A DNA stretch of 34,490 nucleotides from Spirochaetes bacterium RBG_13_51_14 (GCA_001829455.1 MIBH01000056.1:7051-41540), one strand, 5' to 3'; positions 764-32,742 are shown, counted from the stretch's first letter. Notes: generated from the letters alone by a model not told the origin. A program made the numbers and translations.

Positions 764-1687
764 TCACCCAGCATTAAAAAAATATACCGCCGAGACGCTT
801 AAAAGGGCAAGCGAATATATCGCACCGGCAGTCTCAACCATCTTTGATGTTTTATTGTCCCGCCGCACCGTGAAAATAAACTCCACGGCGAGGAAGGCGA
901 GATATACGGTCCCGATTATCACGGAATATATTAGTGACCGAAAGATTGAAATGTAGAAATAGGTGAAGGCGCAGCCAGCCAGTGCCGCCACCACTTGGTT
1001 TGCAAAAACTGCGCCCCCGATCCCCCACACCTTAGTGTATGAATCCGCATGCTCCCGCTCCCGGTCGGGCGACCAGGTCTTACGCGCAATCTCGAAGTTA
1101 ACGGTGGCCATCATGCTCCCTGACAGAAAGATGAAAAGAAAGCCCGGATGTTCCGATACAGCCTCGGCCAGGCTTAACCGCTGGGAAATTCCAAGAAGGA
1201 GCGCGAGCGGAACCAGGAGTTGGTGGCTCAGGAGATAGAACCACGTTCTTTTATTGAGATACTCGGGCGCGAAAAATTCCTTGAACATGAGATAGACATA
1301 GGCCTGGATGGCCAGCCATATAACAAAGGGCCACGCACCCAGGTAGAGGGCCATGGCGCACTGAAGCATGACCAGCACTATGAGGAGTTTCCGCAGATCG
1401 GGCAACGTGATGGTTCCCCTGCTCAGCATCCTATCAGGAAACGCCGACGCGTCCTTCGCGTAATCTTTGTGCTCGTCGAGTATGCGGATCTGGAAGAGTA
1501 CCATGAACAGAACCAGGCACCCCATTATCGATTCCAGGAGATCGACCGGCGTGTGTCCTTCGATTATATTGGGAAAAAAATAAGACATATAATAGAGCGC
1601 GGCAGCGTATGAGAAGGTCGCCGGCAGGGGGAAGCGTTCCTTGGTGTAGAGATAATACTTTTTTAAAAGGTAGATGTTCGTATCCAT
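764..1687 (-). CDS. UbiA-superfamily membrane prenyltransferase
   Basis: About 307 residues with roughly eight membrane segments. The family transfers a polyprenyl group from its diphosphate to an acceptor inside the membrane, using Mg2+ held by two Asp-rich loops. The first loop is visible as DEHKD at about residues 71-75 with a further D at 79, followed by AFPDRMLSRG, a typical UbiA context. The second loop is altered (NFEIARKTWSPDRE), with Glu/Arg/Lys where many members have DxxxD; related UbiA-like proteins share this pattern. I chose the ATG at 1687 because AAAGAGG lies just upstream. The longer reading would add a low-complexity MAAGGPAGKEDV. The gene overlaps the preceding CDP-alcohol gene by 25 bases, so the two are probably co-translated. 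It is last in a five-gene operon. The acceptor is unknown: a lipid, a quinone precursor or a glycerol phosphate are all possible. Confidence 0.8.
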   Translation of the reverse strand: MDTNIYLLKKYYLYTKERFPLPATFSYAAALYYMSYFFPNIIEGHTPVDLLESIMGCLVLFMVLFQIRILDEHKDYAKDASAFPDRMLSRGTITLPDLRKLLIVLVMLQCAMALYLGAWPFVIWLAIQAYVYLMFKEFFAPEYLNKRTWFYLLSHQLLVPLALLLGISQRLSLAEAVSEHPGFLFIFLSGSMMATVNFEIARKTWSPDREREHADSYTKVWGIGGAVFANQVVAALAGCAFTYFYISIFRSLIYSVIIGTVYLAFLAVEFIFTVRRDNKTSKMVETAGAIYSLALLSVSAVYFFNAG

Positions 1688-2853
1688 AACATCCTCTTTA
1701 CCGGCAGGGCCACCAGCGGCCAAAGAACGACAATGGCAACCGCAGTGGCGGTCGATATTGGGAAAAAGAGCCAGGTGGCAAAGGCGACCCCAATGCCTGA
1801 ATCTATCTGATCGACAGATATAAAAAGGAGTCTGTTCTTTACAGGGACTTCGCCGGGCCGTATCCCGAGCCTCCTCTTTAAAAATGAATTGGGAAGCTCG
1901 AACAGAGCATATCCAAAACCCTGCGCCAGGCCGATCTGCCAGAAAGGAATGGCAAGCAGATCAATGGTCAGGTCGAGAGGACACAGGATCAGTATTCCCC
2001 GGAGAACGAGGGCGCCGAAAACGCTGAAAACCGGCATGAGTATGAAACCGCGGATAGTTTTATTTGAACCGAAGATCTTTTCGCTTACCGGTAATCTGAG
2101 AGATGAAAGCCAGTCTTTTGACACGATAAGCATGTGGAGCGATCCTCCGATGATTGCCGGAATGGCGGTAAAAAAACCCGACAGAAGATGGCGCTCCGCA
2201 TCGTGCATGAGTTGACCGCCGGCGAATTCACGAGGATTTATAACCCCGAAACCATCCAGCGCGAAGAGAAGCGACGCGCCGAGAATAACCGTCAGCATCA
2301 ACGGTATGCTTTTAAACTTAAAAAAGCTGCGCCGGTACACCATGAAGAGTGAAAAAAGCGCGAATAGTCCTGCCACTATGGGGAATATAGCGCCATGGGG
2401 GAAAAACCAGTCCGCGATATATAGTATCCCAAGAAAGAGCACGCTCCAGAATACCGGCATGCCAAAATACGCAAGCCCACTTTTGTCATCTTTTATATTG
2501 CCGATTTCATTAAAGACGGAAAGTCGCACCACACCGGACACTATGAACAGGAGGAGAATAATCCCATAATACCAGATATTGAAGCCCCACCGGTACAGGA
2601 AGAGTGATGGGACCGCGAGGTAATCAAAAACGTCCACAAAACCGTCCAGGTAGCGGCCAAAATCGCTTTCCAGCCCGAATTTGCGGGCCAGCACGCCATC
2701 GAGCGCATCCACCAGCATCGCTATGAACAGGAGACTCAGTGCGAGGGAAAACTCACCCGCCAGCACCAGTGCAGCTGCGCAGAGCGATATGACAATCCCG
2801 CTGATTGTAAGACAATCGACCGGGTTAAGGCTTACGATAAAATACTTTTTCAT
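1663..2853 (-). CDS. Fusion: CDP-alcohol phosphotransferase + CarS/CdsA-like CTP:phospholipid cytidylyltransferase
   Basis: About 396 residues, all membrane-embedded, in two halves. The N-terminal half carries the complete CDP-alcohol phosphotransferase motif DGxxAR-x8-GxxxDxxxD at about residues 52-74 (DG, AR, G, D and D all present). This family displaces CMP from a CDP-alcohol to make a phosphodiester lipid. The C-terminal half resembles CarS (CDP-archaeol synthase) and CdsA: FGSNKTIRG at about 261-269, then SFLKRRLGIRPG and a terminal DQID. The acidic residue normally before the SFxKR motif is Glu rather than Asp. One chain therefore seems to hold both the enzyme making a CDP-activated lipid and the enzyme consuming one. 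The start at 2853 is preferred over 2874 because AGAGTGG precedes it. It lies 84 bases downstream of the ligase gene and overlaps the UbiA gene by 25 bases. Confidence 0.85.
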   Translation of the reverse strand: MKKYFIVSLNPVDCLTISGIVISLCAAALVLAGEFSLALSLLFIAMLVDALDGVLARKFGLESDFGRYLDGFVDVFDYLAVPSLFLYRWGFNIWYYGIILLLFIVSGVVRLSVFNEIGNIKDDKSGLAYFGMPVFWSVLFLGILYIADWFFPHGAIFPIVAGLFALFSLFMVYRRSFFKFKSIPLMLTVILGASLLFALDGFGVINPREFAGGQLMHDAERHLLSGFFTAIPAIIGGSLHMLIVSKDWLSSLRLPVSEKIFGSNKTIRGFILMPVFSVFGALVLRGILILCPLDLTIDLLAIPFWQIGLAQGFGYALFELPNSFLKRRLGIRPGEVPVKNRLLFISVDQIDSGIGVAFATWLFFPISTATAVAIVVLWPLVALPVKRMLWIRTSTF

Positions 2854-2937
2854 GTTGACCACTCTTGCATACATTGATTAAAGATTATATATCTGCTCCA
2901 CATCATATACGTTGCTGGGCCCCCAAATCATTACTCG

Positions 2938-4551
2938 TTAATCCAGCATCTTTATGAGCGCGGGGCGATCTATTTTGCTGTTATGCCTCTTATCCAGGGG
3001 GATACGGTTCATCTCTCGTATCGATATGTCGTCACAATCAGATCCTCTCATCAACTCCCGAATCGCCTTCAACGAGGCCTCACGCTTCGCCGTTCGATCG
3101 AGCACCACTGCGAGTATCGGGCGGTCCGCTGTGCCGGATGCCACGACGGCGGATCGTACCACGCCCGGTACTTCATCTATTTTTTTCTCAAGGAGATACG
3201 GATGGATGAGCCTTCCTCCGTGCTGTACAACGTCCCGGGCCCTCCCGGTGAGCCATATCCGTCCCTTTCGATCAAGATAACCGGTATCGCCGGTGCGGTG
3301 CCACACGCTGCCATCGGGACAGGGGATCTTGTATTCCCCGATTGGCCCGGGATTAGCCACATATCCCCGTGAAACATGATCCCCGGCGACCACGATCTCG
3401 CCGATCTCTCCGATCTGGAGGGTGTAGCGTTCGAGGGTATGATCGCTGATGGAATCGTGATCGGGCGGCAGATTGACTATTTTTACCCTGACAAAGCCGT
3501 ACGGTTTTCCCACGAGGAAGCCCTCGCCTACCGATTCAAGAATATCATCTATTGAAATACTGCTGATCGGTTCCGCCTCAGTAGACCCATACACGACCCT
3601 TATCTCAGCCCCGGGGAATGCTTGCCGCAGTATGGCGCATAATTTTCGCGGCACCGGGGCACCGCCGGTGACAATGAGGCGCATAGATGGCAGACGCATT
3701 TTATTGTGTATGATATGCTCCGCAACCCGTTTCATGAAGACCGGCGCCGCGCTCAGCCTGGTCGGCTTGAATTCCCGGATCTGCTGAAGGATAAGGGACG
3801 GATTAACACGTTTAACAGCGGCGAAGTCCACTGCCGCGATCAGGGTCGGCATGCCGCAGGCGAGATTGTGCAGCACATATACCGGGAAGGCGGTCATATC
3901 GATATCACCGGGGCGATCGGGCAGAATTGCCCGGTTGGCCAGGTGCTGCTGCTTGAGGCCCCAGTGCTTCCGGTCGGCCCCTTTGGGCCGGCCGGTGCTG
4001 CCTGACGTGAAGGAAATAATGCCGGTAGTCTCACGGTCGCACGGCACAATGTCGATCCGATGCGATCCCGCTTCTTGCAGATGCGAAATCGGACGGATAC
4101 CGATGCCGTCGCCATCAACCGAGTAGCATCGGTATTTCCACAATCGTGGGATGAAATACCGGATGCGGCAGAATTTTTGTTTGGTGATAATCGCTCCCGC
4201 CATTGAGTCGTCAAAGGCTGTGAGCATCTTTCTGAAACCCATGCTGATATCCACGAGCACTGGAATCATTCCCGAGGCCAGCATGGCGGCGATGATGCAA
4301 TACAGATCGACGCTGGGCGGGATCATGATGATGACACGGTCACGGGGCCGGTATCCGGCTTTCCTGAAACCCCTCTGGTATGATGCTATCTTCCTGCCCA
4401 TCTCGCCGAAGGTCGCGGTTTCATACCGGGTGACCGCGTCATTGCTCCATGCGACTGGTATACGGAGGGCTTCCCGGTGGGGATGCTTTTCAATCTGCTC
4501 AACTACCAATTCCACCAGGTTGCCTGAAGATTTTTTATGATTATGCTTCAT
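2938..4551 (-). CDS. AMP-forming acyl ligase, OleC/fatty-acyl-CoA-ligase-like
   Basis: A 537-residue member of the ANL superfamily, which activates a carboxylate as acyl-AMP. Visible motifs: the P-loop FTSGSTGRPKG at 181-191, the A5 motif VVYGSTEAE, the A7 motif RTGDTGYLDRKGRIWLTGR and the end motif SKIDR with the candidate catalytic Lys. The stretch DIDMTAFPVYVLHNLACGM, followed by VDFAAVKRVNPSLIL, resembles OleC (beta-lactone synthetase of olefin biosynthesis) and related fatty acid-CoA ligase family proteins more than acetyl-CoA synthetases. No OleA, OleB or OleD homologue is in the window, so olefin synthesis is not supported. It follows the GNAT-like gene by 12 bases and precedes the CDP-alcohol/CarS fusion. 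It may charge an acyl or hydroxyacyl group for the neighbouring acyltransferase-like protein; that is inference. Confidence 0.85.
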   Translation of the reverse strand: MKHNHKKSSGNLVELVVEQIEKHPHREALRIPVAWSNDAVTRYETATFGEMGRKIASYQRGFRKAGYRPRDRVIIMIPPSVDLYCIIAAMLASGMIPVLVDISMGFRKMLTAFDDSMAGAIITKQKFCRIRYFIPRLWKYRCYSVDGDGIGIRPISHLQEAGSHRIDIVPCDRETTGIISFTSGSTGRPKGADRKHWGLKQQHLANRAILPDRPGDIDMTAFPVYVLHNLACGMPTLIAAVDFAAVKRVNPSLILQQIREFKPTRLSAAPVFMKRVAEHIIHNKMRLPSMRLIVTGGAPVPRKLCAILRQAFPGAEIRVVYGSTEAEPISSISIDDILESVGEGFLVGKPYGFVRVKIVNLPPDHDSISDHTLERYTLQIGEIGEIVVAGDHVSRGYVANPGPIGEYKIPCPDGSVWHRTGDTGYLDRKGRIWLTGRARDVVQHGGRLIHPYLLEKKIDEVPGVVRSAVVASGTADRPILAVVLDRTAKREASLKAIRELMRGSDCDDISIREMNRIPLDKRHNSKIDRPALIKMLD

Positions 4552-4563
4552 AGAAAGGCTGCT

Positions 4564-5682
4564 TTATAAACTTTTGGCGAACAATCCATAATGGCGCTTG
4601 ATATCGTCACACCCCTCGAAAACTCGCCGTGCAATGTTCAGTGAATAATTATCTTCGCGCATGGTGGCGCCTGCGCAGCGGCTGTAGTGCGGCAACGCCC
4701 ATTTCATGCAGAAGTATACCATTACCGTAAAAAGGCCCTGGTTTCTCCATTTCGGCTGGATTCCGACCGTTTTAAGAAGCAGCGTCGGTTTCATGAGGAA
4801 TTGAAAATGCTTGCCGTACTCAAGCTGACCGGGGGCGATCCGGTTAGGAGCCCCCTGGCGGCATAACAAGCCGTAATCCGGGAGATTGATGAAAAAACCG
4901 GCTATGTTCCCTTCCGAATCAAGGGCAAGAACCGATGATTCCGGGCAGATGTTGCGGGCCAGAGTGGCTCCGAAGCCAGCCTTGAATTCCTCGGAGGAGA
5001 TTTTGGTATACGCGAAATTTCCGGAGAACACGGCGTCGACAAGTTCGTATAGGCTCTCCAGACTTTTTAACAGGAAATCGTGCGTGAGGGGAACGAAGAC
5101 GATCCCGTTCTCATCCGCTCTCTTCATGTCGTCCTTTGAAATTTCACAGGAGCGCTGATATGCCTGGTGAAGATCGCCACCCAATGTCATGTATCGATAT
5201 GCAATCTTAAAACCGAGGTCTTCCAGGAACCTCGGATAATAGGGTGGATTATACGGTTCTCCCGGGTAACAGCCGTCCTCGAACCGGTCCAGGCGGATCC
5301 GGTACGATCCGAAAGTCGTAAAATTGATCGGTCCGTAAACGGTGACGGCTCCTTTGTCGCGCGCCCACGATTCAAATTCTGAAAAAAGCTTTCGATTTGC
5401 ATGGTATGCGTCAATCGTTTCCCAGTATCCGAAAAAGGCGACGTGCTGGTCATTGATCAGCAAATCCGGATTATAGAAACCGGCGAGACGGGCCATATCA
5501 GGTTCGCATCCGATCCAGGCACTGTTCTTATCAAAATACCGGTTGTGAGGTCCGAAGGCCAGCTTCAGCATGCCGGGCGATTCGGGTATCCAGTTCGGGT
5601 CGCCGCGGTATACCTCGCACGCGACCCCATGAAATTCATCAGGGAAATTGTTTTCAGATTTCCAGTCCATGCTTTTCATCAT
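4564..5682 (-). CDS. GNAT-fold acyltransferase-like protein, function unassigned
   Basis: About 372 residues with no signal peptide or membrane segment. The pattern (RGDPNWIPESPGMLKLAFGP, then HVAFFGYWE, VYGPINFTTFGSYR and PYNPPYYPRFLEDLGFKIAYRYM) matches a large family annotated as GNAT/N-acetyltransferase-like proteins of about 370-390 residues. The C-terminal half ends in a GNAT-like part (WRNQGLFTVMVYFCMKWA, then REDNYSLNIARRVFEG). An acyl-CoA or aminoacyl donor would be expected, but the substrate cannot be read from sequence. Several starts lie close together at the dikinase stop: TTG 5691, ATG 5682, ATG 5679 and ATG 5670. I took ATG 5682; none has a good ribosome site, which suggests translational coupling to the upstream gene. 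The adjacent acyl-adenylating enzyme makes an acyl transfer step plausible. Confidence 0.65.
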   Translation of the reverse strand: MMKSMDWKSENNFPDEFHGVACEVYRGDPNWIPESPGMLKLAFGPHNRYFDKNSAWIGCEPDMARLAGFYNPDLLINDQHVAFFGYWETIDAYHANRKLFSEFESWARDKGAVTVYGPINFTTFGSYRIRLDRFEDGCYPGEPYNPPYYPRFLEDLGFKIAYRYMTLGGDLHQAYQRSCEISKDDMKRADENGIVFVPLTHDFLLKSLESLYELVDAVFSGNFAYTKISSEEFKAGFGATLARNICPESSVLALDSEGNIAGFFINLPDYGLLCRQGAPNRIAPGQLEYGKHFQFLMKPTLLLKTVGIQPKWRNQGLFTVMVYFCMKWALPHYSRCAGATMREDNYSLNIARRVFEGCDDIKRHYGLFAKSL

Positions 5683-5683
5683 A

Positions 5684-8410
5684 TCATGCAATTGATTTCA
5701 AGCCGGGCGAGGCCTCGAGCCTCCGAATTACGCCCGTGCTCCCGTCCATGTGGACCCGTTCTCCGTCCCTTAGAATTTTGGTAAGTCCCGGGATATTTAC
5801 GATGGCCGGAATGCCCAACTCGCGGGCGACGACGGCGGAATGCGACAGGGTGGAACCGCGCTCCACCAGTATGCCGCCGGCGGTGGGGAAAAGGGGTGCC
5901 CAGCCGGGGTCGGTCCGCACCGTGCACAATATTTGTCCCTTCAGGTTGAGCTCGTCATGGGGCGAGAATATCAGCTTGATTTTTTCCTCGCAGGTGCCGG
6001 GATAACAACCGATACCTCGCAGCTCCCCGGCGTTTTCCCTTGTCTCTTCCTTCTGATGGTACTCGTACCGGTTGTGGTGGTAGACAGGGCCTTTCGTCGA
6101 AAAATGGTGCGGCAACTCTTCCTGTTCATAGGAGCGGTATTCTTCTTTCCGGGCCGACACCAGCGGTTGTATCCGGGATTGGACGCATCGTCCGTCCATA
6201 TACGCTTCTATTTCCTCTACGGTTACATAAAAGATGTCCCGCGGCTCCTTTAAGAGGCCATGGAATGCCATCTGGTTACCGATTTCAAGGTAGATATCTC
6301 TGATCAAACCAAAAGACCTGGTCCTCATGAGACGCATGTTCTCGCGGTTTTTTACAGCCTGGCGGAGTTTCATCAGATCCCTTCGGAACTTTCTCGCTTT
6401 AAGGCGGCCGAGTTTCGCCCGTATCATGCCGAGAGCATTCACTTCAGAGCCTGCCCTGAATTTGCGCTCGTTTTTCGCGAGGGTCTCGACGGTGAGATCA
6501 TCCCGTGACAGGTAATTCTTTATGACCGCGAACAGAAACGAGGGGTCCTGGCGGAGCGTGACTGATTCAAGCTTGAGCTCCCCGATGCAGCGGTCGCCAT
6601 AGAGTTCGATATATTCCAAGCACTGTTCATAGGCGTGTTTGTCGGCGTTCTGCAAAACGTCCAGCAGGCACCGGTTGTCCGATTTCATGATGAGCATCGA
6701 CAAGTCCGGTTTCGTTCGGATGTAGTCGCACAGGCGCAGTATGAACTTGGTAGGCTCGGTGCTCTCGATGCCCTCCTCGCCGGCCATGAGGTTGTTCTGC
6801 ATGACCACCGGGTTCACTACGCCGGCCTTTTCGAGCCAGCGGTGGACCCGTCCATTCATCATCATGACGTAGAAATCGTTGATGATGGGTGTCTGCCAGT
6901 TATACATGATCCGAACCTCGAGGCGCTTTGCCATCTCCACCAGCTCAGCCATCTCCAGGGTATGGAGCCGTGCCCGGCTGACCAAATCTTTCTCCGCCTT
7001 GAACATGGCCTGGAATTCGGCGACAAGCCGGTCAATCCTCCGGAACCCAGCCAGGAGCTTGCACAGCGTCTTGAAGAGCTGCGGTATCCGAATAATTTTT
7101 TCCCCTATGTTCAGACACCGATCTTCAACTAAATCAACCGGGTCCTGGAGACCCATCATCCGCTCCATATCGGCCTTGTTGGTCTTAAAAAAAGGAAGCA
7201 GCAGCAAAGCCCTGTACCAATTGTTGATATTGTAGTATATCCGCCCCTTCACCAGGCCGAGCAGATTTTGGAACACAGGCCTGATCTCCTCTCGTCGTGC
7301 TTGGGATACGCCCAAAAGTTTGAAGGTCTGCTCATAGACGATGGAATAGGCCCTGTTGGCGAAGGAATAGGTGAGCGGCGTTGTCACGCCACAGTAGCTT
7401 TCCTGGATGTTGGAATTGTCCCATACGATGGTTTTCCCCGACGGCTCGGCAGGGGCAGGCAGGGATGTTATCGGCCTTGTCTGAAGTATATGGAGTCGGT
7501 CGCTGTCGTATGCCCATTCGATATCCTGGGGAAAACGAATAAGCTCTGCGATTTTCCTCCCCGCTTCGGTTATTTCCCTTATTTCCGCTTCTTGAAGACA
7601 TCCCACTTTTCGCAGGTCGGCGGGTACGGCGGTTTCCCTCGTGCCGGAGCCCCGTTCTGTATCAAATACGATCTGGTTCTCCTTGTCGTTTATGGTCTCG
7701 CGGATATCGGTCCCATACAATGAGACCGTGTATTCATCGGCGTCACAGCTTCCTGAAACGACCCCCTCGCCGAGTCCGTAGCAGGCCGAAATGAGGCCGT
7801 GTTTCCTGCTCCCGCTCAGGGGGTGGGCGGTAAAGAACACGCCGGAGACCCGGGAATGTATCATCAGTTGCACAATGACCGCTATCCTTGCGTCAGACGG
7901 GTCCTGGCCGTGCAGCAGGCGGTATCGTATGGAACGTTCGTTGAATGCGCTGGCGAAACAGGCGATCACTGATTTCGATATGTCCCCAAGGCCTCTCAGG
8001 AATAGAAATGAATCCATTTGCCCGGCGAAGGAGGCTGCCGCGGCGTCTTCCCCCACCGCAGATGAACGGACCGCGAAAAAGGCCTTGTCCCAGCAGTCAA
8101 ATTCCCCCAGCTTCTCATTGAGGGCTTCGGCGATACAAGGGAGGAGGCCCTTGCCGGCGATCCTGTTGCGTATTTCCTGCGATACGGTGCCTGCGCTGTT
8201 GTCGTCGGGTAAATGAGAGAGCGCATCCATGATCCAATCATGTTCCCCGACCATAACCTGTTCCTCAAAGGCCCTGGTGGTTATAACGATCCAGGGGGGC
8301 ACCCGGAAGCCGTTTCTCGTGAGCCACGCCAGATTCCGGGCCTTACCGCCGATTATCTCCTCACCGTAAGACGATGCATCATCCTGAGTGAGTACATATC
8401 CTGCCTTCAT
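5684..8410 (-). CDS. PEP-synthase/rifampin-phosphotransferase-like dikinase (ATP-grasp + swivelling His domain)
   Basis: 908 residues. The N-terminal third is a PPDK/PEP-synthase ATP-binding domain: GGKARNLAWLTRNGFRVPP at 21-39, FAVRSSAVGEDAAAASFAGQ, VSGSCDADEY and ILQTRPITSL. A long helical middle region of about 450 residues follows. The chain ends in the swivelling phosphohistidine domain, GSTLSHSAVVARELGIPA, with the expected phosphorylated His at about residue 857, and only 51 residues remain after it. The C-terminal PEP/pyruvate TIM barrel of true PEP synthase and PPDK is therefore absent. This is the architecture of rifampin phosphotransferase (Rph) and related enzymes, which move the beta-phosphate of ATP via His to a small molecule bound by the middle domain. 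It is the first gene of the five-gene operon. The natural substrate may be an operon intermediate; self-resistance is an alternative. Confidence 0.85.
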   Translation of the reverse strand: MKAGYVLTQDDASSYGEEIIGGKARNLAWLTRNGFRVPPWIVITTRAFEEQVMVGEHDWIMDALSHLPDDNSAGTVSQEIRNRIAGKGLLPCIAEALNEKLGEFDCWDKAFFAVRSSAVGEDAAAASFAGQMDSFLFLRGLGDISKSVIACFASAFNERSIRYRLLHGQDPSDARIAVIVQLMIHSRVSGVFFTAHPLSGSRKHGLISACYGLGEGVVSGSCDADEYTVSLYGTDIRETINDKENQIVFDTERGSGTRETAVPADLRKVGCLQEAEIREITEAGRKIAELIRFPQDIEWAYDSDRLHILQTRPITSLPAPAEPSGKTIVWDNSNIQESYCGVTTPLTYSFANRAYSIVYEQTFKLLGVSQARREEIRPVFQNLLGLVKGRIYYNINNWYRALLLLPFFKTNKADMERMMGLQDPVDLVEDRCLNIGEKIIRIPQLFKTLCKLLAGFRRIDRLVAEFQAMFKAEKDLVSRARLHTLEMAELVEMAKRLEVRIMYNWQTPIINDFYVMMMNGRVHRWLEKAGVVNPVVMQNNLMAGEEGIESTEPTKFILRLCDYIRTKPDLSMLIMKSDNRCLLDVLQNADKHAYEQCLEYIELYGDRCIGELKLESVTLRQDPSFLFAVIKNYLSRDDLTVETLAKNERKFRAGSEVNALGMIRAKLGRLKARKFRRDLMKLRQAVKNRENMRLMRTRSFGLIRDIYLEIGNQMAFHGLLKEPRDIFYVTVEEIEAYMDGRCVQSRIQPLVSARKEEYRSYEQEELPHHFSTKGPVYHHNRYEYHQKEETRENAGELRGIGCYPGTCEEKIKLIFSPHDELNLKGQILCTVRTDPGWAPLFPTAGGILVERGSTLSHSAVVARELGIPAIVNIPGLTKILRDGERVHMDGSTGVIRRLEASPGLKSIA

Positions 8411-8933
8411 CGACGTTACCTGCCGTCAATCAGTATCAGTTACGATTTATAAATGTTAAATATCCCACTACCTGCCAGATATAGAGATGAAAATTCCCCA
8501 CTGGAAGCTCTCGGTGCTGATAGACCGGCTTTACGCCAAACGGAGCGGTGTATTTTTGTTATAAGTTAAAGAAAATTACGCAACAGAACTGTGGGTCATC
8601 CACCCCGGCTTGGACACAAGCTTTGCTCATAAAAATTTTACCAAGGTTTAAAGAGTGATGCGAGATAAATATATTTTATATTTTTATAAGCCAATTTTTG
8701 ACAAAAAAATCATATTAGTCAACAAAAAAACAATAGATTATTGACAAATGATATAAGGTAGACGCAAAATTTAATGTATTTATGGTCATGATATCCATCT
8801 GCATGCCAACGATGGTGGGTAATGGCGCCATTTCCAAAACTACATGGATGTAGGTTTTGGGACGCACTCCAGGGCAATCATCCCAATTTGATTTTTTAGA
8901 GTTTTCCTAATAAAAATGAGAGGGATAATTTCA
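8411..8933 (+). other. 523-base intergenic region, no gene recognised
   Basis: This separates the divergent dikinase and amidotransferase genes. Composition falls abruptly from GC-rich to AT-rich at about 8.55 kb, which marks the left edge of the AT-rich block carrying the amidotransferase. I found no RNA gene, no convincing repeat and no complete promoter. TTGACA hexamers occur near 8698 and 8742, but neither has a good -10 at 16-18 bases. The ribosome site of the amidotransferase (GAGAGG) lies at the right end. Confidence 0.5.
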
Positions 8934-10106
8934 ATGAACGAGATAAGAAGATGTTCAAAATGCATTCTACCTGCAAATTTCAGAAATATATATTTTGATA
9001 AAAATAATACATGCAATTATTGTAACACCTATGATTTGTTAAAAGATAAGCTCTGTAACTATGATTATTTAAAAAAGCTCCTTATCGAGAGATTTGATTC
9101 GGTTCGGGGTAAATATGAATACGATTGTCTGGTAGGAATCAGCGGAGGGAAGGACAGTTGCTATATCGCATATACATTAGTAAAAGATTATAACTTACGC
9201 GTGCTGACGTTCACCTATAATAATGGCTTTTTAAGCGATTACGCAAAACGCAATATCGATCTGGTCATTAAAAAGCTGAAATTGGATCATTTCTATTATT
9301 CGGTAGATTGGAGCATTCATGGAAAATTTTATAAGAGCGCTATTGAAAAGTTAGGTCTGCCGTGTCTGGGTTGTTCCTACCTTGGCGGCATTCTGATGAA
9401 CAAACTTGCATACGAAAGGAGAATTCCATTTTTTGTTCATGGGCGATCGCGCGCGCAGATGTTTAAAGAACTTGCTCCCGGTTCTCTCGATGCATTCGTA
9501 CCTTTTATTAAATGCAATATTTCCCCATATAACATACATAATGTGAAAAATGCTGGAAGTGATGCTCTGGCTATGGCATTTAAACTTTTAAACAGGGTGA
9601 TCCCTGATGAAGCGCATAAGAAAAAGATTATAGAGAATTTTTTCCCGGATTTACATAGTTATTTCAATGATGCGCAAATTCCTGAATTTCTTGCTTTTTT
9701 TCTCTATGAACAATATGATGAAAAGAAAATGATGGATATACTTGAGAGAGAACTCGGATGGAAACGCCCCGATTCGACGGATATTTTAGGTCATCAGGAC
9801 TGTATAATTCATGACGCTGCAATACATTTGAATTATCAAGTTCTTGGTTATCCCCTTTTAGCGCAAGAATTAAGTGTCATGGTTCGCGAGAATGACTTAA
9901 CGAGGGAGGAAGCGATGAAAAGGTTGTATAACGAGGAAGCGTTATACAATTATCCTAAAGGACCGATGAATGAATTGTGCAAACGAACTGATATCGATGA
10001 AGCTGATATCAATAAAATAATAAAAAGGAACAGAAAGAAACATAAATTAATGCGGTTACTGATTAGAATTAAATATTTTATTAAAAAGCCAATATTAGAA
10101 ATCTAG
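8934..10106 (+). CDS. N-acetyl sugar amidotransferase (WbpG/PseA-like PP-loop enzyme)
   Basis: About 390 residues. An N-terminal CSKC (C7, C10) and CNYC (C27, C30) pair looks like a small zinc knuckle. It is followed by the PP-loop SGGKDS at about 70-75, which adenylates the substrate. This arrangement is typical of N-acetyl sugar amidotransferases, which convert a UDP-N-acetyl sugar to an acetamidino sugar for LPS O-antigen or flagellin glycans, normally with HisH- and HisF-like partners supplying ammonia. No such partners are in the window. The ATG at 8934 is preferred over 8916 because GAGAGG lies 9-10 bases upstream. The gene is markedly more AT-rich than its neighbours, uses many AAA/AAT/ATA codons and is flanked by gene-free DNA on both sides, which suggests horizontal acquisition. 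Surface polysaccharide modification is the most likely role. Confidence 0.85.
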   Translation: MNEIRRCSKCILPANFRNIYFDKNNTCNYCNTYDLLKDKLCNYDYLKKLLIERFDSVRGKYEYDCLVGISGGKDSCYIAYTLVKDYNLRVLTFTYNNGFLSDYAKRNIDLVIKKLKLDHFYYSVDWSIHGKFYKSAIEKLGLPCLGCSYLGGILMNKLAYERRIPFFVHGRSRAQMFKELAPGSLDAFVPFIKCNISPYNIHNVKNAGSDALAMAFKLLNRVIPDEAHKKKIIENFFPDLHSYFNDAQIPEFLAFFLYEQYDEKKMMDILERELGWKRPDSTDILGHQDCIIHDAAIHLNYQVLGYPLLAQELSVMVRENDLTREEAMKRLYNEEALYNYPKGPMNELCKRTDIDEADINKIIKRNRKKHKLMRLLIRIKYFIKKPILEI

Positions 10107-10363
10107 TTATTACACATGGCGCAGCGTAGATGTGAATAACAAATAAATTATAAACGTGATATCATGGTGGCGGCCGTGGCAGCCGCCCGGGCATCACAAG
10201 TCACTATCACGGTGATCAGGAGATTTCCGCAGGCGACCGCTTTCCAGAACAACCCGGCACCAGTAAAAAAACCGGAGTCCGATATTTAACTTTACAATAA
10301 TAACATGCCGGTTAAAGTAGTGTACCGGGTCAATGTCCCGATTTCATCATATGAGTGCGCGTA

Positions 10364-11854
10364 ATGTTTGATTCGTCCATTCTGGCAAAACAGTTCGACC
10401 GGGGAGAAGAGGTATACATCAGCTTTCAGTATATCAGCAAGGAGGTTGAGATTGACATCAATTCACTTCTCGCCAAAGTACTGTCGCGTTTTGACATCGG
10501 ATACCTGTACGATACCTTTGAATCCATTTTGCGCGAACTGATACAGAACGCGGTCAAGGCGAACATTAAGCGGGTCTGGTTTGAGAGCCAGAATCTCGAT
10601 ATTGATGGCGAAGGGGATTACCGGACCGGCATGAAGAAATTCAAGGAAGTCGCCTATCATCCCGAGCTGATGAAAGAGAAGCTGCTGGAAAGCCCGTATC
10701 GCATTATTGTAAAACTACGGCGGCGGGAGCAGGGGATCGATATCGATATCATCAACAACGCGCGGATCGTACCCGGCGAAATGGGCAGGATTCAGAACCG
10801 GCTTAAAAAGGCCGCGGAATGTAAGAATTTCGCCGAGGCGTATGAGAATATGTATGATTCATCGGAAGGGGCGGGCCTGGGGATCATCCTGTCGGTGATG
10901 CTGCTTAAAAACGCCGGACTTGACATGGATCTGTTCAGGATTATTTTCGAGCATGATTCGTTGAAAATTTCACTCATGATTCCATGGGTCCTGAAAAACT
11001 TTGAAATTACTTCCACCATAAAAGAGAGAATACTTGAAGACGTTAATTCGCTGCCCACCTTTCCGGAAAATATACTAGAATTACAGACCCTCTGCAACAA
11101 TCCTGAAACGACTATTGAGGCGATATCCGCAAAAATCAGCCTTGATCCGTCGCTGACTGCCGATGTCCTTAAGCTATCCAATTCAGCAGGATTCATCACC
11201 GGGAAGCGGATCAGGAAGATCAACGAGGCGGTCATGATCATCGGGCTGAAAAACCTGAACTCAATCCTTATTGCAGCGTCTTCGCGGAAGATCCTTGACA
11301 AGCGGTACCGGAAGTTCGAGCAGGTGTGGGAGCATTGCAATAGGACTGCTTACTACGCGCGGAACATTGCGCTGGAGAAGGGGTATTCGTATATCGCCGA
11401 CAGCGCATTCATATCCGGGCTTCTGCATGATATCGGTAAGATCGTACTCCTGTCCACGGATATTGGCCTCGTGAACCAGATATCGGAGATCGTAAAAAAC
11501 CGGAAGATCAGGACTACCGCCATTCTGGAGGAGATAACTATCGGCATAAGCCACTCGACCATCGGCGCGCTCATCGCCGAGACGTGGAACTTCCCCGAGG
11601 ATCTCGTCGAGGCCATCAGATACCATCACGCGCCCCTGAATCCCGAAATTCGTAATAGTGACCTGGTCATGATTGCATACCTGGCCAACCAGATGAGCAA
11701 CATGGAGTCGAAAGATACGGACCTGCTTTTTATCGAATCGGAGGTGCTCGAGGCATTCGGAATCGGCTCACGGGCTGACTATGATGAATTTTACCGCCGA
11801 CTCAGGAATCGCTACAACAGCCATCACCAGTTTTTAAAGAAAAGCGCGCCATGA
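10364..11854 (+). CDS. HATPase-HDOD signalling protein
   Basis: About 496 residues. The N-terminal 200 resemble a GHKL ATPase: an N-box ELIQNAVKAN at about 58-67 and a G-box GAGLGIILS at about 169-177. No histidine phosphoacceptor helix, sensor or receiver domain is visible. An HDOD domain follows (about 220-430), with LPTFPENILELQTLCNNP near its start and an HD-like LLHDIGKI at about 354-361. HDOD proteins act in signalling, often linked to c-di-GMP or chemotaxis. Combined with a nucleotide-binding domain they are probably stress or motility regulators. The start is uncertain: GTG at 10355 or ATG at 10364. The 258 bases upstream hold a short GC hairpin (10169-10187) and no clear promoter. 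Its TGA lies within the next gene's ATGA, so the two are translationally coupled. Confidence 0.85.
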   Translation: MFDSSILAKQFDRGEEVYISFQYISKEVEIDINSLLAKVLSRFDIGYLYDTFESILRELIQNAVKANIKRVWFESQNLDIDGEGDYRTGMKKFKEVAYHPELMKEKLLESPYRIIVKLRRREQGIDIDIINNARIVPGEMGRIQNRLKKAAECKNFAEAYENMYDSSEGAGLGIILSVMLLKNAGLDMDLFRIIFEHDSLKISLMIPWVLKNFEITSTIKERILEDVNSLPTFPENILELQTLCNNPETTIEAISAKISLDPSLTADVLKLSNSAGFITGKRIRKINEAVMIIGLKNLNSILIAASSRKILDKRYRKFEQVWEHCNRTAYYARNIALEKGYSYIADSAFISGLLHDIGKIVLLSTDIGLVNQISEIVKNRKIRTTAILEEITIGISHSTIGALIAETWNFPEDLVEAIRYHHAPLNPEIRNSDLVMIAYLANQMSNMESKDTDLLFIESEVLEAFGIGSRADYDEFYRRLRNRYNSHHQFLKKSAP

Positions 11855-13578
11855 GCATGTATATCCTTAAAGAGACACCCGGTGGCAAGCAAACACTGGT
11901 GTATAAAAATTCCCGCGAGGTTCGAATCCACTCCGCCTATGACCCGGTCCGGGAAGCCGAGCGAGCGGTCGAGGGCTTCACCATCGGCCGGGCTTCGGTG
12001 ATTGCCGTTTCGGGTGTCGGCCTCGGGTATCATATTGAATGCCTGAAGCGCAAGTTTCCCGGCATGCCGATTGTCGCGGCAGAGCGTGATGCCGAGGTGG
12101 TGGCCATCGCCCGGAAGGTCTGCCCGCGCCACCTGGACGGAGTGGCCGTGATTACCACCGGAGCCGAGCTTTCGGCGGTTTTCGAGGAGGTGGACATCAC
12201 CGGTTTTCGCGGCATCGCTCATTACATCCACCGCCCCTCCTATCAGATCCATCGGGAATTTTACGATGGTGTCATGCGTGAGATGAGCCAATATATTTCA
12301 TCGAAAATAAGCGATCTGCTCACGCGGTTCGAGTTCGAGGAACGCTGGGTTGAAAATATTCTGCATAACATCCACCATCTGTTCACATCGATCAGGGTGC
12401 TGCAGCTTTTCGGGAAGTTCCCGGGCTGTCCCGGCGTAATCGTGTCAGCGGGCCCGAGCCTGCGAAAGAACCTCTATCTCCTAGGCCAGATGCGGGAGCG
12501 GGCGCTCATCGTCGCGGTGGACACCGCGGCGCGGGTTCTCCAGAAAAAGAATTTCGTTCCGCACATCATTATGACTCTTGACGCGCAGAAATACAGCCTC
12601 AAGCATTTTCTAGGACTCCATGCCGGCGGAGCGGCGCTCCTGGCGGACCTGGTGTGCTATCCGCCGGTGGTGCGCTCATACTGCGGATGGAAGATATTGA
12701 GCGCCACGTCGAAGTACTATACCGCCGCTGACGGAAGGCTGTCGCGTGAAACAACGCCGCTCATGGGATGGATCGAGAAACATGTGGAACCGATCGGCGA
12801 CATCCAGTCGGGCGGTTCCGTGGCCACGAGCGCCTTTGATCTCCTCCTGAACATGGGGTGCAGCCCCATTATCCTGGTCGGGCAGGACCTGGCCTATACC
12901 GGAAGGGAGATACATTGCAGCGGCACCTATCACAATGATGAGTGGCTTCCCCGGACGTCGCGGCTCCATGGCCTGGACACTATCAACCAGAACATTGTGA
13001 GGAAGCGCAAGATCAAATATGTCCCAGCTTATGGCGGTATGGGGCTGGTCATCTCTGATTTCGTGTTTGACCTATACCGCGGCTGGTTTGAGGATTCGGC
13101 CCGCAAGGTGAGCGTTCCGGTAATCAACGCTACTGAAGGCGGCGCCCGCATCTCAAATACCGATGAGCGCTCCCTGTTGTCGCTCATTGATCAGTATGCT
13201 GTCCTGACCCCTTCGCCAGCCGCGGTACTTGAGCGGACTCTCTCGGCAGTGAAGCGGGAAAAGCCGGACCGCCTGGTAAAAGCTATGCGGGACGCCATAG
13301 CCGACCTGGAGTGCGTCCGCGAGGCAGCGTCACGCTCTATTCCCGAGCGGGACCGGTCAACCGCGGTTGAAGAGCTGGTCAACGGCGGTGACATGCGGCT
13401 CATCATGCAGCCCTATCTCCGCAGGGCTCGTACCTTCCTGGCCCGGTACCCCGCCGGACCGGAAGAAGGGGAGCGACGCATGCTTGCCGAAATTCGATCC
13501 GCGGCGGAGCGTCTTATTCCCGCCCTGGAGGAGGGCGTCCGCAATCTCCTCAACCCGGTGACGGTTAACCATGGCTGA
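11851..13578 (+). CDS. MptE-like (DUF115) protein, motility-associated-factor glycosyltransferase family
   Basis: 575 residues, cytoplasmic. The central domain is the DUF115/MptE-like fold: VIVSAGPSLRKNLYLLGQ from about residue 196, IVAVDTAARVLQ, PHIIMTLDAQ, GGSVATSAFDLLLNMGC and IILVGQDLAYTGREIHCSGT. In Maf proteins this domain transfers nonulosonic acids (pseudaminic or legionaminic acid) onto flagellin; in archaea MptE is a 6-hydroxymethylpterin pyrophosphokinase. The N-terminal region of about 180 residues resembles the Maf N-terminal domain. It starts inside the stop of the HATPase-HDOD gene (ATGA overlap). A sugar-transfer role fits loosely with the acetamidino-sugar enzyme about 2 kb upstream. 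No flagellin gene lies nearby. Confidence 0.85.
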   Translation: MSMYILKETPGGKQTLVYKNSREVRIHSAYDPVREAERAVEGFTIGRASVIAVSGVGLGYHIECLKRKFPGMPIVAAERDAEVVAIARKVCPRHLDGVAVITTGAELSAVFEEVDITGFRGIAHYIHRPSYQIHREFYDGVMREMSQYISSKISDLLTRFEFEERWVENILHNIHHLFTSIRVLQLFGKFPGCPGVIVSAGPSLRKNLYLLGQMRERALIVAVDTAARVLQKKNFVPHIIMTLDAQKYSLKHFLGLHAGGAALLADLVCYPPVVRSYCGWKILSATSKYYTAADGRLSRETTPLMGWIEKHVEPIGDIQSGGSVATSAFDLLLNMGCSPIILVGQDLAYTGREIHCSGTYHNDEWLPRTSRLHGLDTINQNIVRKRKIKYVPAYGGMGLVISDFVFDLYRGWFEDSARKVSVPVINATEGGARISNTDERSLLSLIDQYAVLTPSPAAVLERTLSAVKREKPDRLVKAMRDAIADLECVREAASRSIPERDRSTAVEELVNGGDMRLIMQPYLRRARTFLARYPAGPEEGERRMLAEIRSAAERLIPALEEGVRNLLNPVTVNHG

Positions 13579-32403: not shown

Positions 32404-32742
32404 ATGGGTATAGACAAATTAGCACATGTAGTATGGGAATGCAAGTATCATATTGTAATTGTGCCAAAATACCGGTACAAAATTTTCAGTAGGGAAGTAA
32501 AAGAATCAATTAAAGATGAGCTTAAAAAGCTCTGTCTATGGATGCGGGTACAGATTATTGAAGGACATGTATGTAAGGACCATATCCATATGTGTATAAC
32601 AATACCACCAAAAATGGCTGTTTCAGAGGTAGTAGGCACATTAAAGGGCAAAACAGCAATAAGGATGTTCAAGAAATTTCCCGAGCTAAGGAAGCAATAT
32701 TGGGGCAGTCACTTTTGGAAGTCGACAGATGCGGCTTTATGA
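32404..32742 (+). pseudogene. tnpA: tnpA, Y1 transposase of IS200/IS605, 3'-truncated
   Basis: 112 codons remain of a normal 140-150. The N-terminal part is intact: HVVWECKYHIVIVPKYRYKI, then IIEGHVCKDHIHMCITIPPK with the HUH metal-binding motif at H60-I-H62, and the LKGKTAIRMFKKFPE helix. Family members continue after HFW with a GY..STVG segment and a helix carrying the catalytic Tyr. Here the frame leaves homology after HFWK (32721) and ends with STDAAL, read from the antisense of the SGNH gene. Without the Tyr it cannot cut DNA, so it is inactive. Confidence 0.9.

Follow-up and report, generated by a model that had tools for sequence, protein, structure and literature searches.

Do five adjacent genes for a dikinase, a GNAT-like protein, an acyl ligase, a CDP-alcohol phosphotransferase/CarS fusion, and a UbiA-type protein form a single pathway, and what would such a pathway make? 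The question is raised by a 34,490-nucleotide stretch of DNA (here, the window) from Spirochaetes bacterium RBG_13_51_14, whose source genome (G000) is a metagenome-assembled genome (MAG) of an uncultured spirochaete, 3.56 Mb in size and 90% complete. The operon represents a real, conserved, and apparently unnamed pathway because the genes for its core enzymes are again neighbors in a different spirochaete family (genome G063) and on a Roseinatronobacter plasmid; the five-gene set is not a chance neighborhood. We read the operon as a four-enzyme core (UbiA, dikinase, GNAT, and ligase) joined to an exchangeable membrane module, with the whole making an amphiphilic phospholipid-like product, and we assign this reading a probability of roughly 0.5. 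A lipid is plausible, and the most likely product would be a fatty-acylated (N-acyl), prenylated, phosphate-bearing lipid with an interchangeable head-group module.

Window proteins were assigned to families with Pfam and NCBIfam models and judged against the cut-offs of those models. From 8410 down to 764, all five open reading frames (ORFs) are present on the minus strand, overlapping or closely spaced, just as the initial annotation had described them. Family searches back every assignment, two of them weakly (CarS and UbiA, which fall under the Pfam cut-offs in the window proteins). The genes, in order, and the region that precedes them are as follows:

5684-8410, minus strand: dikinase, 908 amino acids (PPDK_N, E = 4e-71; PEP-utilizers, 8e-22; NF004883 above cut-off)
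4564-5691, minus strand: GNAT-type acyltransferase-like protein, 375 amino acids (bCerS-type profile A3, E = 9e-29)
2938-4551, minus strand: AMP-forming acyl ligase, 537 amino acids, PRK09274-like (PF00501, 1e-42; NF006754, 421 bits against a cut-off of 478)
1663-2874, minus strand, probable start ATG 2853: CDP-alcohol phosphotransferase/CarS-like fusion, 403 amino acids (PF01066, 6e-14)
764-1687, minus strand (ORF from 1723): UbiA-superfamily membrane prenyltransferase-like protein, 307 amino acids from ATG 1687 (NF004617, 3e-17)
8411-8915, no strand: A+T-rich intergenic region separating the operon from a divergent WbuX-like gene (8916-10106, plus strand)

With the fusion starting at ATG 2853 and UbiA at ATG 1687, the latter having a ribosome-binding-like AGAGGA just 5′ of it, the final two spacings come to +84 and -25, which reproduces the range of -25 to +84 given earlier. 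The first four genes stand in identical order in G002, a separate MAG of the same genus (57-72% identity). Because G002 repeats both the gene order and the fusion, neither is an assembly artefact.

Conservation of the set was followed through samples of 46 genomes of the class, 393 genomes of the phylum, and six genomes of the genus, and evidence outside Spirochaetota rests on a plasmid collection searched by tblastn with the dikinase, UbiA, and ligase. Full-length close dikinases occur in three of the 46 class genomes, namely G000, G002 (72%), and G035 (39%); G035 is also the only one of the 46 with a DUF3419 (BtaA-like) gene, which lies beside an operon-type ligase. The UbiA type of the operon occurs in three of the 393 phylum genomes (G000, G002, and G063), and all three also have the core dikinase, GNAT, and ligase. 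Genes for an MMPL-family transporter, UbiA, dikinase, GNAT, and ligase overlap in this order in G063, with the transporter gene directly 5′ of UbiA. All three plasmid searches led to a single record, NZ_CP121116.1, which is a complete plasmid from the alphaproteobacterial Roseinatronobacter sp. S2. An operon on it encodes UbiA (2e-20 to the window protein), dikinase (3e-116), DUF3419, a 439-residue membrane protein, a 281-residue protein, and AMP ligase (8e-51). The 281-residue protein is a GNAT homologue (1e-8 to the window protein and 1e-18 to the G063 GNAT), and the two extra genes sit between dikinase and GNAT. The 439-residue protein has no Pfam or NCBIfam match, and its KRKLVHVG stretch recalls CTP-dependent prenol kinases or CTP-transferases, which we treat as a lead only. 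Viral contigs were searched as well and returned nothing useful. The initial annotation would have been refuted by genes that are not conserved together, and the outcome was the opposite: UbiA, dikinase, GNAT, and ligase are kept together across phyla, but the fusion is an accessory outside this core, present only in the two sister species G000 and G002 (2 of the 393 spirochaete genomes). Its remark that no named pathway has this set agrees with the open literature, where no paper joining these families was found (subscription papers were outside the scope).

By its domain architecture, the dikinase classifies as an Rph/PigC-type phosphotransferase, a label that does not imply rifampin activity. 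The Pfam layout consists of an ATP-binding domain (PPDK_N) at residues 18-319 and a C-terminal phospho-His domain at 824-893; the substrate-type middle domain carries the motif DNSNIQESYCGVTTPLTYSF from residue 331, and the C-terminal domain holds a catalytic-type H857 within VERGSTLSHSAVVARELGIP. This is the order seen in Rph-like enzymes: PPDK_N first, then the middle domain, and the PEP-utilizers His domain at the C-terminus; a PEP-binding TIM barrel is absent. A profile alignment to PDB 5hv2 (E = 7e-151) is collinear over residues 4-325 and 549-895 with the His aligned, and both 5hv2 and 5fbs are entries that we take to be Listeria Rph (labelled PEP synthase in the structure file). Phosphoenolpyruvate (PEP) synthase, the name of the NCBIfam model, is ruled out for the window protein, as its His domain is C-terminal with no PEP-utilizers_C match or TIM barrel after it. 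Rph and PigC/RedH have the ATP-binding, middle substrate, and C-terminal phospho-His domains in the same order as the operon dikinase. However, the latter differs in its divergent middle domain, its pairing with UbiA, and its setting outside any rifamycin or prodigiosin context. In the tree, the dikinases of the clusters group together, separate from the rest of the family (100/99), and they have a middle-domain motif of their own, DNSNIxES, which reads SNANIxES in Streptomyces clavuligerus.

The GNAT-like protein has no match among Pfam or NCBIfam models. Profile and tree refine its GNAT-like label: the protein is a distantly related sister to bacterial ceramide synthase (bCerS), an N-acyltransferase. 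The GNAT family includes the bacterial N-acyltransferases that make ceramide (PMC11324152, PMC11087976). Homology to the bCerS/GNAT family is seen through profile A3, which is composed of homologues, several of them beside Spt genes, without direct comparison to a characterised bCerS. In contrast to the homologous bCerS/CC_1154-type N-acyltransferases, from which they diverge to about 20% identity, the operon GNATs fall outside the group of Spt-linked and housekeeping bCerS-type proteins (96/94), with weak mutual grouping of their own, and no Spt gene is present in the operon or in the core clusters elsewhere. The subfamily is common to G000, G002, G063, and Roseinatronobacter. By tblastn (2e-9), the operon GNAT is also related to a Rubrobacter protein encoded between aminotransferase (Spt-like) and oxidoreductase (reductase) genes.

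The ligase had been called OleC-like, a name that does not survive. PRK09274 and OleC are its nearest named models (about 190 bits for the OleC models), and it shares the AMP-binding fold with the OleC beta-lactone synthetase, but the cluster ligases form a single clade split from OleC in the tree (100/99) and no OleA, OleB, or OleD gene lies beside the ligase, which rules out both OleC and an ole olefin or beta-lactone cluster. Ole-type clusters are found instead in related spirochaetes that lack the operon (L152:2213-7832 and L153:6937-12599), where an OleB-OleC-type fusion of about 900 amino acids has KAS-III-type genes and a gene for an OleD-type epimerase on its flanks, as judged from sequence and ligase homology.

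The two remaining proteins hold the matches that fall under Pfam cut-offs. Residues ∼19-200 of the fusion are a CDP-alcohol phosphotransferase with the complete motif D56xxDGxxARx8Gx3Dx3D81, and residues ∼231-388 resemble a CarS-type CTP-transferase, with NKTIRG, ELPNSFLKRR, and DQIDSG. This second part reaches 18.3 bits with PF01864 (cut-off 22) and E = 2e-8 with NF003114 over residues 231-388 (34 bits against a cut-off of 148). CarS chemistry turns lipid phosphates into CDP-lipids (PMC9385802). A CarS-only homologue elsewhere in G000 (contig C13, L023:6745-7338, plus strand) exceeds the PF01864 cut-off with 66.7 bits, and its gene converges on that of a second, distant dikinase (7350-9962, minus strand), making a second CarS-dikinase neighborhood in the same genome. 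For UbiA, PF01040 gives E = 7e-6 on the window protein, and the G063 and Roseinatronobacter orthologues exceed the Pfam cut-off (49 and 44 bits). Motif 1, RxxDExKDxxxD, which holds DxxxDxxxD, is kept in all five cluster members. The motif 3 region reads ExxRK in the same five, in an alignment that includes no canonical quinone-type UbiA, and the donor of this UbiA may therefore be unusual.

In the pathway that we infer, down to its substrates, step order, and product, the ligase would activate a fatty or hydroxy-fatty acid as an acyl-AMP or thioester, and the ceramide-synthase-like GNAT would use it to acylate an amine. A small acceptor would receive an isoprenoid chain, or one like it, from UbiA. 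By analogy with rifampin phosphotransferase, the dikinase would phosphorylate a hydroxyl with the beta-phosphate of ATP through phospho-His857, converting ATP to AMP, phosphate, and the phosphorylated acceptor. The CarS domain would turn the lipid phosphate into a CDP-lipid, whose CMP would be exchanged for a polar head group by the CDP-alcohol phosphotransferase part of the fusion. The result would be a phospholipid-like amphiphile, either kept in the membrane or exported. The presence of membrane enzymes of head-group chemistry in the operon counts in favor of this scheme. A broader proposal, which we offer only tentatively, is that of a bacterial lipid class not described before, in which a mobile core of UbiA, dikinase, GNAT, and ligase, spread over two phyla or more, would fatty-acylate an amine-bearing isoprenoid-like backbone and phosphorylate it through the Rph-type dikinase, and exchangeable modules would supply the head group (CDP-lipid chemistry in spirochaetes and DUF3419 aminocarboxypropyl transfer in Roseinatronobacter). 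If the product is a lipid, the system would add a new class of membrane lipid, show that a dikinase of the Rph type can serve as a lipid kinase, and provide a fixed core that accepts different head-group modules. Cross-phylum conservation makes a testable pathway of five loosely annotated genes, two of which had carried misleading names (PEP synthase and OleC-like), and the four-gene core is small enough for expression in Escherichia coli.

Several observations weigh against the phospholipid-like product and its pathway. UbiA (64%) in G002 is on another contig from the ordered dikinase-GNAT-ligase-fusion genes and is truncated by the contig end. No fusion is present on the G063 contig that carries the core, and DUF3419 together with another membrane protein stands in for it in Roseinatronobacter; CDP-lipid head-group chemistry is therefore not general. 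AlphaFold models of the GNAT and the fusion, made from two-sequence alignments, have pLDDT values of 39 and 42 and are too poor to use. In Streptomyces, a related dikinase overlaps a UbiA gene in S. clavuligerus, where the pair adjoins AfsA-like and ICMT genes, and another, in S. durmitorensis, has AfsA-like, ICMT, P450, and KAS III genes as neighbors and lacks an annotated UbiA; these neighborhoods point toward specialised metabolism. The corresponding alternative is that the operon makes a specialised metabolite instead of a membrane lipid, with the dikinase serving either as an ATP-driven ligase of the PigC/RedH kind or as a kinase that acts on a hydroxyl, its substrate being a prenylated and acylated small molecule that is secreted as a signal, pigment, or antibiotic. 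We consider this alternative unlikely, yet it deserves more weight than any other, as the dikinase is similar to PigC/RedH over its full length (320-330 bits), the core is sporadic in occurrence and plasmid-borne in Roseinatronobacter, and TetR-TolC-HlyD-MFS-type genes, read from sequence, lie beside UbiA in G002. However, the spirochaete core has no other flanking tailoring genes, and both the CDP-alcohol/CarS fusion and the BtaA-like DUF3419 of Roseinatronobacter belong to membrane-lipid enzyme families. The S. durmitorensis genes are part of a plasmid locus (L176:4669-14991; AfsA-like, ICMT, nitroreductase, related dikinase, P450, nucleotidyltransferase, thymidylate kinase, and two KAS III genes) that looks like an unstudied metabolite cluster. 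Accidental adjacency of unrelated genes has very little to recommend it: the five genes together are absent from most relatives and UbiA is unlinked in the G002 assembly, but the same core is adjacent in G063 and Roseinatronobacter, and the rare UbiA occurs only where other core genes do.

Two known lipid pathways also resemble parts of the operon. On contig C22 of G000 (L113:8988-13951), genes for an Spt-like enzyme, an acyl carrier protein (ACP), a fatty acyl-AMP ligase, and a short-chain dehydrogenase/reductase (SDR) form a probable sphingoid-base locus that is conserved in related spirochaete genomes and matches the known tendency of SPT genes to occur together with those for ACP and acyl synthetase (PMC9386255). 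The operon could be the phosphosphingolipid branch of that locus, with the GNAT as ceramide synthase for its sphingoid base, the dikinase as ceramide kinase, CarS making CDP-ceramide, and the phosphotransferase adding the head group. Precedent exists in Caulobacter, whose phosphosphingolipid synthesis relies on a ceramide kinase and on another protein, bearing a CDP-diacylglycerol-synthase-like domain, that is proposed to yield NDP-activated ceramide (PMC11324152), and the N-acyltransferase, lipid kinase, and CTP-transferase logic is alike; the operon differs in its kinase, its UbiA, and its lack of Spt linkage. This branch is kept alive because G000 has the Spt locus yet no bCerS-type GNAT besides the operon copy, whereas five sister genomes have a housekeeping bCerS-type gene, an absence that may reflect gene loss or the incompleteness of G000. 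We nevertheless regard it as improbable, as UbiA has no role in it and the distribution argues against it: G002 carries the operon GNAT plus a separate bCerS-type GNAT, the operon GNATs are outside the Spt-linked clade, and Spt and bCerS-type genes occur in other members of the genus that do not carry the operon. Archaeal-type ether lipids, with UbiA as DGGGP synthase and the CarS and CDP-alcohol phosphotransferase activities completing the phospholipid, would draw on the best solved relative of UbiA, a DGGGP synthase (E = 1.5e-7), and on the CarS and archaetidylserine-synthase-like domains of the fusion. We reject this route as extremely improbable because PcrB/GGGP synthase gives no match above cut-off in the six genus genomes (G000 and five relatives), which extends to the genus the lack that the initial annotation saw in the window. 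Compared with the archaeal pathway, moreover, the operon adds acyl-activation, acyl-transfer, and dikinase steps that ether lipids leave unexplained, its CarS is fused to the phosphotransferase, and the remaining core clusters lack CarS.

Returning to the window, the operon promoter likely sits in the intergenic region at 8411-8915. Promoter- and terminator-like motifs are no more frequent than expected by chance. Across this region, plus-strand genes at 8916-13578 encode a WbuX-like N-acetyl sugar amidotransferase, an HDOD protein, and an MptE-like/PseD-domain protein, which suggests flagellin glycosylation beside the operon. Farther along, an IS200-type transposase ORF lies at 32404-32742 (plus strand).

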